From NCBI GenBank assembly GCA_014284505.1, contig JAAFYY010000001.1, positions 3,224,001 to 3,288,000 of the forward strand: a DNA stretch of 64,000 bases, written 5' to 3'. Every line of letters starts with the position of its first letter. Position 1 is the stretch's first letter. The DNA comes from Streptacidiphilus sp. 4-A2. Lineage in GTDB: Bacteria; Actinomycetota; Actinomycetes; Streptomycetales; Streptomycetaceae. The position numbers were made by a program, and so were the translations under genes. Shown here piece after piece: positions 37,140 through 40,171 of the stretch. A model generated the notes under the pieces. The model was not told the DNA's origin. It saw nothing but the letters and a program-made list of their open reading frames with translations, and made no database searches.

Positions 37140-37227
37140 AGTGGTGCATGACGGACATGCGGCATAGTGTCTCGGTTGGGGGGCGTCACCGAATCCGGCG
37201 ACGACGAAGCTCCTATGAGGAGGCACC

Positions 37228-37416
37228 ATGCTTGCTCACGAACTGGCCCGCACCACCGACACCGTCCAGCTGGCCCCCGAGGACTTCTCGGCGGTCGTCT
37301 CGTTGATGGCCGAGGAAGAAGCCCCCGTCAGCGACGCCCCGCTGTACACCCCGGAAGCCGGCGGCGTCCTGCTCCTGCTGGCGCTGCTGTCGCCCAAGAC
37401 GCCGAAGGACCGGTGA
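37228..37416 (+). CDS. 62-residue leader-like peptide
   Basis: ATG at 37228 follows a strong GAGGAGG. The first 40 residues are acidic (TVQLAPEDFSAVVSLMAEEE). They are followed by APLYTPEAGG, a hydrophobic run VLLLLALLS and a PKTPKDR end. An acidic leader, a Gly-Gly and a distinct C-terminal core are the general form of ribosomally made peptide precursors, though the core has no Cys and only one Ser and one Thr. It heads a tightly packed operon of three further genes. Precursor status is inference; it may instead be a one-helix membrane peptide. Confidence 0.6.
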   Translation: MLAHELARTTDTVQLAPEDFSAVVSLMAEEEAPVSDAPLYTPEAGGVLLLLALLSPKTPKDR

Positions 37417-37460
37417 ACGGTTCTGTGGCCCGGAACGCGTCCATGCGAGTCCAGGGCTGA

Positions 37461-38200
37461 GTGACCACAATGCCCTTCGCTGATGCGACACCGCACGAGG
37501 AGTTCTCGCTGGCGGTGGAGCGGATGGCGGTCCGCGCCCTCGACGTGCTCAATGCCGTCGGGGGCGCGGACGCCGGTCCGGCTCCGGCAACCGTCCTGGC
37601 CGCCTCGACCGCCGATCTCGCGGCGGTCCGAGTACTCGGCACCGACCTGCTCGCCCCCTACCTGCTCGGCCGGGCACCGCTGCACCCCGAACTCGCGTGG
37701 CCATGGCCGAGGCTTTCCGCGCTTCCCGCCCGAACAGCTGACCGCCCGCGCGCCCGTCGGCAGCACCGCCGACAGCACGGTGGGCTGGCGCGACTGGGCC
37801 GCCGCCGAGGTGCTCAGCCGCTGCGGGCTGCCCGCACTGCTTCCCGCCCCCCACCGGGACCGCCCCGGACGCCGCTGAACTGCCCTGGCAGGAATGGTCG
37901 TTGTGGATGGCGAAACTTTCCCCGCTGGCGGTTCCCGGGCTGGACAGCCCGGTGCACGAGGCGGCCCTGCGCGACCTGCGCGCGCTGGGCCGCGGCACCG
38001 TGCGGGCGATGCTGCGGCGCGACTACCGCACCGCCGCGCGGATCGCCCGCTGGCTGGCCCTGGGCCAGGCCCGCGGTCTGGAGCCGCCGCTGCGGCTCGC
38101 CCCCCTGTTCCGGCAGATCCGGCTCTTCGGCGGCCCCGGCGCCCGCACCGCCCTGGACGTCCGGATCGGCGAGCGACTGGCCGTGGAGGCTGAGCGGTGA
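37461..38200 (+). CDS. Unknown protein A of the peptide operon, about 246 residues
   Basis: The GTG start at 37461 lies 45 nt after the peptide gene. Readable parts are FSLAVERMAVRALDVLNAVG, PPEQLTARAPVGSTADSTVG, WRDWAAAEVLSRCGLPALLP, GLDSPVHEAALRDLRALGRG and RIARWLALGQARGLEPPLR. It is mostly helical, with no membrane segment or known motif. Breaks near 37705 and 37850. Its stop overlaps the next start (GTGA). Family not recognised. Confidence 0.6.
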
Positions 38201-39122
38201 ACCCGAGGTACTGAAGACCGCCCACAGTGTCGGCTCCCGGGCCCTGGCCTGGCTGCACGGCAGCAGCAGGCAGTTCGGCTCGCTGGCACCGGGCACCGAT
38301 TTCGAGTTCACCGACCCGGACAACATCTACAAGCCGCTGGGCGAGACCGCCCTGGCGGCCTCGATGGTGCTGCGTGAAGGCGTCGCCGGGCCCGGCGAAC
38401 TGCTGGCCGCACAGGAGTTGCTCGACTTCGCCTGGGGGCAGCTCCGGGCCGGGGACTCCCTGTTCGACCGCCAGGTCCGGCACCCGATGCTGACCGACCC
38501 GGTGGAGCTCTACGCGCACTTCGCCCGGGGCGGGTACCGTCACCGCCAGCTGGACGAGCTGGCCGCGCATCTGGGCAGCCTGGACTCGTTCCGGGCGATC
38601 GAGATGATGCAGAACCGGCGGTTGGCGGTCGCCAACGCCCAGCGGGTGATCGACCCCGGCTACCGGTGCGACTGGGCGGCCCTGGCCGCCGACACCTGGC
38701 TCGGCGCGACCCCCGAGCCCTGGATGATCAACTGGATGACCGGCTACAACGTGACCCACACGGTCTTCCACCTCACCGACTGGGGCTCGCGCCCGGACGG
38801 CCTGCCGGAGCCCCTGGCCGACTACCTCGCCACCTGGCTGCCGGTATGGGCGGACATCTGGCAGGAGGTCGGCCAGTGGGACCTGCTGGGCGAGCTGCTG
38901 ATCGTGGACGCCTGCCTGCGGCAGCCGGTCTGCGACCCGGGGAGCTGGCAGCAGCTGGCCCGGGTGCAGCACGAGGACGGGCTGATGCCCCGCGACTCGG
39001 AGCCGGTCTCGCCGGACCCGCACCAGGCGTTCAAGGACAACGAGCACACGGCGGTGGTGGCCGTGGTCGCGGGCACGGTCACCCTGTCCCGCTCGCTGGG
39101 CGTCGCCCGGGCCACCGTATGA
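38197..39122 (+). CDS. Unknown protein B of the peptide operon (DUF6895-like)
   Basis: Starts at GTG 38197; one missing base near 38203 restores NPEVLKTAHSVGSRALAWLH. The rest is intact: FEFTDPDNIYKPLGETALAA, ELYAHFARGGYRHRQLDELA, WMINWMTGYNVTHTVFHLTD, WGSRPDGLPEPLADYLATWL and ending HQAFKDNEHTAVVAVVAGTV. The helical, (alpha/alpha)-like pattern and these motifs recall the actinobacterial DUF6895 family; this is from memory. Overlaps genes A and C by 4 bp (GTGA, ATGA). Confidence 0.6.
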
Positions 39123-40171
39123 GCGCCGCGGCCGTCCTGACCGCCTCGCCGGCCGTGGACACCCTGGCCGCCCGGGTGGCGCCGCTGCTGGACAGCGCGC
39201 CGCAGGCCAGCGCGATGGCCGTGGTGGCGGTCCGCGGGGACGAGCGGCTGCTGCTGTGCGGCGGCTCCACCGCCCGCGTGGACGGACGCCAGGTGGACGC
39301 CGGGACCCGGTTCGAGGTCGGCTCCATCAGCAAGACCTACACCGCGCTGCTGCTGGCCGAGGCGGTGGCCAGGGGCGAGGCGGACTACGACGACCCGATC
39401 GCCGGGTACCTGCCGCCGGGGACCGTGCCCAGGCACCGCAGCGGAACCCCGATCACCCTGCTGCACCTGGCCACCCACACCGCCGGACTGCCCCGGCTTC
39501 CGGTCGGAATGCTGGCGACGGGCGTGCCGGTCTGGCTGTCCAACCCCTACGAGCGCTACAGCCAGGAGCGGCTGCTGCGCTCCCTCGCGGCGACCCCGGT
39601 CCGCAGCCGGCCCGGCAGCCGGGTCTGCTACTCCAACCTGGGGTCGGCCTGCTGGGCCAGTTGCTCGCCCGGGCCGCCGGGACGGACTATCCGACCCTGC
39701 TGGAACAGCGGATCTGCGAGCCGCTCGGCTGACCCGCACCGACTGCGACTCCGGCCGGGGCATGCCACCGGCTACTGGCACGGCCGCCCCCGGCCGCCGT
39801 GGCGGATCCCGGCGCTGCCCGGCGCGGGGGCGGTGCGCTCCAGCGCGGCCGATCTGCTGCGGTACCTGGAGGCACTGCTCGATCCGGGCCGGGCCGGGGC
39901 GCTGGGCCCGGCCCTGGCCGAGGTGCAGCGGCTGCGGCTGGTGCTGCCGCGCACCGGGGACGGGCTGTGCCTGGTCTGGAACCACCGCCGCCGGCCCGGC
40001 CACGAGCTGCTGTTCCACTCCGGCGGGACCCGCGGCTTCAGCACCTTCGTCGGCTACAGCCCGGCCACCCGGACCGCGCTGGCCGTGCTCGCCAACTGCA
40101 CGCCCGGCCTGGGCAGCAACCTGATCCAGACCGCCTACTCCGGCTTCCGGGCGCTGGCCGAGGCAGGCTGA
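39119..40171 (+). CDS. Serine hydrolase, beta-lactamase/peptidase S12 family
   Basis: Class C beta-lactamase fold with EVGSISKTYTALLLAEA (SxxK), VCYSNLG (YxN) and LLFHSGGTRGFSTFVGYSP (HxG). No signal peptide is seen, so it may act in the cytoplasm. It is translationally coupled to gene B. In this context it could be a peptidase or esterase acting on the product of the operon, but only the fold is certain. Breaks near 39650 and 39730-39765. Its 3' end overlaps the convergent monooxygenase by 37 nt. Confidence 0.82.
   Translation: MSAAAVLTASPAVDTLAARVAPLLDSAPQASAMAVVAVRGDERLLLCGGSTARVDGRQVDAGTRFEVGSISKTYTALLLAEAVARGEADYDDPIAGYLPPGTVPRHRSGTPITLLHLATHTAGLPRLPVGMLATGVPVWLSNPYERYSQERLLRSLAATPVRSRPGSRVCYSNLGSACWASCSPGPPGRTIRPCWNSGSASRSADPHRLRLRPGHATGYWHGRPRPPWRIPALPGAGAVRSSAADLLRYLEALLDPGRAGALGPALAEVQRLRLVLPRTGDGLCLVWNHRRRPGHELLFHSGGTRGFSTFVGYSPATRTALAVLANCTPGLGSNLIQTAYSGFRALAEAG

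Follow-up and report, generated by a model that had tools for sequence, protein, structure and literature searches.

A recurrent cassette of a short peptide, a DUF6895 protein and a serine hydrolase in Streptomycetaceae: a candidate RiPP system

The genome of Streptacidiphilus sp. 4-A2 carries, within the 64,000-nucleotide stretch analysed here (the window), a short peptide gene (P) followed by genes for a helical protein (A), a DUF6895 protein (B) and a serine hydrolase (S). This P-A-B-S array exemplifies a cassette that is widespread, being present in roughly half of the sampled Streptomycetaceae species. There is good support for the cassette and for its resemblance to RiPP systems, and we infer its chemistry and product. 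P is probably a modified or processed RiPP-type precursor, and we lean slightly towards B being an epimerase that acts on it.

Results

The cassette in the window

The source genome (9.05 Mb) belongs to the Streptomycetaceae, with Streptomyces and Kitasatospora as named relatives. The window spans positions 3,224,001 to 3,288,000 of contig JAAFYY010000001.1 and has a GC content of 73.5%. The features of the cassette are collected in Table 1. An earlier note on this DNA had described a 62-residue peptide ORF followed by a DUF6895-like protein and an S12 hydrolase, with 4-nt overlaps between genes, and these elements were all recovered. The peptide ORF lies behind the ribosome site GAGGAGG, B matches PF21836 with 267 bits against a gathering cut-off of 23.8 (E 2.3e-79), and the gene 3′ of B matches PF00144. 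The overlaps GTGA (38197–38200) and ATGA (39119–39122) are present in the sequence and recur among relatives; a fixed stoichiometry of the cassette proteins might be expected, solely from these gene overlaps.

Table 1. Features of the P-A-B-S cassette in the window, with the evidence for each.
Feature	Position	Strand	Evidence
Shine-Dalgarno-like GAGGAGG, 5′ of the peptide	37217..37223	+	kept in 5/5 same-genus loci
P, 62-aa precursor-like peptide MLAHELARTTDTVQLAPEDFSAVVSLMAEEEAPVSDAPLYTPEAGGVLLLLALLSPKTPKDR	37228..37416	+	profile specificity, dN<dS, annotated CDS at homologous position
A, ~245 aa, all-helical, without Pfam family	37471..38200	+	tblastn of intact relatives, two frames
B, DUF6895 (PF21836), proposed peptide epimerase	38197..39122	+	PF21836 match, barrel model, conserved residues
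S, S12/class-C-beta-lactamase-type serine hydrolase	39119..40171	+	PF00144 on two fragments

Two further details had to be revised. The spacing between P and A had been given as 45 nt; by homology, A starts at ATG 37471 rather than at GTG 37461 (44 nt from P), leaving a gap of 54 nt. The proposed sigma-B-like promoter was rejected, as it proved to be a relaxed match 112 nt upstream, lacking the exact consensus and not kept in the genus alignment, where GAGGAGG is retained in contrast to the remaining DNA upstream of P.

The window copy is interrupted by frameshifts, approximately three in A, one close to the start of B and approximately three in S, and tblastn with intact relatives covered A in two frames. 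When the region was set against its syntenic counterpart in two relatives, other genes at ~28–45 kb also proved to be split into two or three frames. Since many neighbouring genes are split likewise and the assembly is 76.5% complete, the frameshifts are most likely assembly errors, and a reading of the window copy as a pseudogene was rejected on the same grounds. The cassette is intact in 4 of 13 same-genus genomes, the remaining 9 being without a B homologue.

Conservation and frequency of the cassette

Loci were collected as ~8 kb either side of B homologues in ~40 further genomes, and a scan of genome contigs gave one further locus (L011). Across 44 related loci, which were picked by similarity to B and so describe that DUF6895 branch, not the whole family, a recurrent gene order and strand was found, either P-A-B-S or P-A-B1-B2-S. 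A was present in 42 of the 44 and S lay directly 3′ of B in 40, with 4-nt overlaps at 33 of the 41 A-B junctions measured and at 28 of 40 B-S junctions. A and B thus seldom occur without the hydrolase, and the peptide, sought by profile or by eye, recurs 5′ of the A/B homologues in ~40 of the 42 loci containing A; on both points the association proposed in the earlier note was upheld. Two loci (L083 and L105) keep A and B without S, suggesting that S is dispensable at times or is supplied from elsewhere, and both A and S are absent from two others (L101 and L107).

The flanking genes vary between loci, except among the closest relatives, so neither a transporter nor a regulator belongs to the conserved unit. 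None of the class-defining RiPP enzymes sought (LanB/LanC/LanM, radical SAM, lasso peptidase/cyclase) was found among the conserved genes of the ~44 loci, with flanks read from gene lists. With only P, A, B and S conserved, the earlier suggestion of a system matching no peptide class that its reader could name stands.

Among the 298 family genomes sampled, DUF6895 was detected in 163 and A (profile A1) in 150. The two occur together in 146 genomes, with A alone in 4 and DUF6895 alone in 17; these figures are plain counts, and kinship would inflate any test on them. In a phylum-wide draw of 396 genomes, DUF6895 exceeded the family cut-off in only six, all of them Streptomycetaceae.

DUF6895 proteins in other RiPP contexts

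DUF6895 is a RiPP-associated family. In five loci (L128–L131 and L133; example L129:6677-14887), the DUF6895 gene immediately follows those for LanB, LanC and an ABC transporter, and a gallidermin-like precursor is encoded with them. These class I lanthipeptide clusters resemble P-A-B-S in that a ribosomal precursor adjoins DUF6895 in the same bacterial family, and differ in having LanB, LanC, an ABC transporter and a Cys-rich precursor, without A or an S12 hydrolase. The lanthipeptide precursor core in these loci reads ITS(I/V)S(Y/W/F)CTPGCTS(D/E)GGGSGCSHCC.

In a second set (L116, L118 and L120–L122), DUF6895 has as neighbours a radical SAM enzyme akin to RiPP maturases, an MFS exporter, a glycosyltransferase-like protein and, in several loci, a protease of family S8 or S9. 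Short acidic peptides are encoded there (e.g. ...DDSICIINNSAAL), one of which matches an aroma-sacti domain. Like the cassette, these clusters have one or two DUF6895 copies beside short peptides, several with a serine protease; unlike it, they include the radical SAM enzyme, the glycosyltransferase-like protein and the exporter, and lack A and S12.

A further link comes from the literature, in which a DUF6895 protein is titled a lasso-peptide epimerase (Shi et al., ACS Catal. 2026, 16, 1757; ref 371 in PMC13352647). As far as that title goes, the protein shares the Pfam family name of B and a RiPP substrate is implied. P-A-B-S is unlike a lasso system, its conserved genes including A and an S12 hydrolase in place of a lasso peptidase/cyclase, and no DUF6895-lasso cluster was recognised among the loci collected. 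MslH, the epimerase of the lasso peptide MS-271, is like the proposed B in being a dedicated peptide epimerase beside its precursor that uses acid/base chemistry. Its fold is calcineurin-like and metal-dependent (PMC10406935), whereas B is all-helical in our model.

Outside the Actinomycetota, a distant DUF6895 relative preceded by two short ORFs was noted on a Cupriavidus oxalaticus plasmid (L136:9066-10861; NZ_CP038636.1). Separately, a phage or defence origin of the cassette was considered and rejected, as P, A, B and S gave no match to PADLOC models, PHROG gave none either, and no phage record with B was found.

Structure and conserved residues of protein B

The AlphaFold model of B (49 relatives; mean pLDDT 92.8) was identified by structure comparison as an (alpha/alpha)6 barrel. 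It aligned over ~250 residues with drimenyl diphosphate synthase, squalene-hopene cyclase and GH88/GH105 proteins (VIA Z ~17), with cellobiose 2-epimerase at VIA Z 16.5 and an N-acetylglucosamine 2-epimerase family protein at 14.7. Foldseek alone gave weak matches, the best with E 0.017. This fold is common to terpene cyclases, glycosidases and epimerases and does not tell the reaction.

Nine residues (E49, R59, G112, Y183, T186, H187, D228, E232 and H283) recur in almost all DUF6895 proteins, whatever the context. The second DUF6895 copies of two radical SAM clusters (L121 and L122) carry Y183C, E232K and H283K or Q, as would be expected of a non-catalytic partner. Single ORFs of ~520–600 aa that contain DUF6895, with the Tyr/His/Asp/Glu/His set kept, were also observed in four loci (L117, L119, L124 and L126), without peptide, A or S12 neighbours.

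The assignment of B as an epimerase takes its lead from the article title cited above. The cassette might instead be a RiPP system in which DUF6895 catalyses another reaction, such as dehydration or cross-linking, with S acting as leader peptidase or cyclase. The barrel is found in dehydratases as well as in terpene cyclases and glycosidases, and neighbouring RiPP machinery elsewhere does not say which step DUF6895 performs. Against this stand the title naming one family member as a lasso-peptide epimerase and the putative catalytic residues shared across contexts, and we regard a reaction other than epimerisation as unlikely.

The peptide P

Purifying selection acts on P within the genus: among five same-genus copies, dN was lower than dS in 10 of 10 pairs. 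A profile was made from 20 peptides and searched against 17,445 six-frame segments, taken from all collected loci; its matches, down to E = 1, all sit directly 5′ of A and nowhere else, and its weak end links other peptide types into one family. The gene has also been annotated in plasmid records of Kitasatospora fiedleri and Streptomyces fungicidicus, as the small CDS WP_100834351.1 and WP_040905375.1, respectively, and in both records A and B are hypothetical proteins and S is a serine hydrolase.

Three main types of P were distinguished. Loci with one B gene mostly have type 1 (SDAPxYxPE...GLLLLxLLLSPKxPK), loci with two DUF6895 copies have type 2 (FRD(S/T)xECxx...LLxSPPTPRP), and a further single-B group has type 3 (LLLxAxLLSxxPxKxEPxEDAxxGxVQxLxxxxAF). 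Peptide type and the tail of P hence vary with the gene set, one versus two DUF6895 copies. In four loci of one genus (L081, L094, L099 and L114), a short conserved ORF-like stretch, MPAVAPVIKAVVM, was seen upstream of the peptide, ~460–650 nt before A; it could represent either a leader ORF or regulatory DNA that has been conserved.

Two readings of the peptide had been offered in the earlier note: a peptide that is processed or modified and has partners dedicated to it, which gains from the recurrence of peptide and hydrolase with A/B, and a membrane micropeptide, which fared poorly. P could act unmodified, as a structural or regulatory micropeptide subunit of an A-B-S complex or as a membrane-tethering peptide, and translational coupling, a sequence highly conserved from end to end and the hydrophobic segment would all agree with such a role. 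That segment is short, however, with a best 19-residue Kyte-Doolittle mean of 1.06–1.74, mostly under the usual transmembrane threshold. Moreover, DUF6895 accompanies RiPP precursors in other contexts, and the tail of P changes along with the gene set. An unmodified P is thus improbable in our judgement.

Protein A

No match to A was found among Pfam families or PDB sequences. Its model (pLDDT 91) is all helical, with ~11 helices and no strands, and in this it differs from the RiPP recognition element, a PqqD-like winged helix with beta strands. Eleven residues are invariant (P129, W147, L160, R182, R186, R190, D192, A196, R201, W202 and R233), and the arginines among them could bind the leader of P. 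Compared over the full length with (alpha/alpha) toroids, the A model reached a VIA Z of 8.7 at most, a likeness that may reflect an arrangement common among helical proteins. A common origin of A and B was considered at the sequence level and is not supported (profile comparison probability 1.8%).

The hydrolase S

The SxxK, YSN and HxG motifs are kept in S of the relatives. The S12 family counts DD-peptidases and D-specific aminopeptidases among its members, which makes cutting by S beside a D residue an attractive proposal. S is closest to class C beta-lactamases and AmpH, sharing with these S12 members the fold and the SxxK, YxN and HxG motifs. It scores far under their curated cut-offs (131 against 266 for AmpH; 107 against 415 for class C) and, unlike them, has no signal peptide and sits in a peptide cassette. 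No signal-like stretch was seen at the N-termini of S in relatives, suggesting that the enzyme is cytoplasmic, where, judging from sequence, it probably works.

S might alternatively be a macrocyclase, like the PBP-type thioesterases of nonribosomal peptides, which are known peptide cyclases (PMC11735501) and share its PBP/beta-lactamase fold superfamily, yielding a D-containing peptide cyclised head to tail or through a side chain; those enzymes are defined by a second, C-terminal lipocalin-like domain (PMC11735501), for which S has no room, its alignment to the hydrolase domain ending at residue 328 of 357 with ~30 residues remaining, and P offers no thioester, making this highly improbable.

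Discussion

Proposed mechanism

On balance, we somewhat favour a scheme in which P is a RiPP precursor whose core is epimerised by B, with help from A, and S then cuts or cyclises the peptide. The analysis shows the cassette itself, its conservation, the predicted fold of B and the RiPP genes that accompany DUF6895; from these we infer that P is modified and that epimerisation is the type of modification, and likewise what A does and what S acts on. P would be a ribosomal precursor with its leader in the N-terminal half, which has acidic patches and the motif LMxEEEAxVSDAPxYxPE, and its core would be the short hydrophobic stretch GLLLLxLLLSPK. A and B would bind P, and B would turn at least one residue of the core from the L to the D form, with the Tyr/His/Asp/Glu/His set serving in acid/base catalysis. 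A, with its several invariant arginines, would present the acidic leader or complete B. As a cytoplasmic serine hydrolase of the class-C/DD-peptidase type, S would cut next to the D residue and free the product, or in the last step might instead transfer the acyl group and so cyclise it. Cleavage of P by S at a D residue is put forward tentatively, as a possibility short of an even chance. Several observations weigh against the scheme: the cassette has no dedicated transporter or regulator, the conservation of P is higher than is usual for the core of an antibiotic RiPP, the fold of B serves many chemistries, and two loci keep A and B without S.

Novelty and significance

The cassette seems to be previously undescribed. 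No earlier description of it or of its peptide motifs was found in the open-licence literature, and DUF6895 was mentioned there once, within a reference list. By defining enzyme, the cassette fits no named RiPP class and may be a candidate new one. In its fullest form, with backbone epimerisation as the main modification, DUF6895 and its helper A making D residues in a leucine-rich core and the S12 hydrolase cutting there, the idea of a new class is attractive and still rather doubtful. If it is true, cutting by S at a newly made D residue would make release of the product a check on its modification.

At least three gene contexts connect the poorly known DUF6895 family with RiPP chemistry. 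If these proteins are epimerases, the lanthipeptide clusters described above would make lanthipeptides containing D residues. In the cassette, a compact four-gene unit that should be easily expressed elsewhere, a possible link between epimerisation and a DD-peptidase-type serine hydrolase can also be put to the test. The presence of the cassette in about half of the sampled Streptomycetaceae species and the conservation of the core raise the possibility that its product is a signal or developmental factor shared by many of them, rather than an antibiotic.
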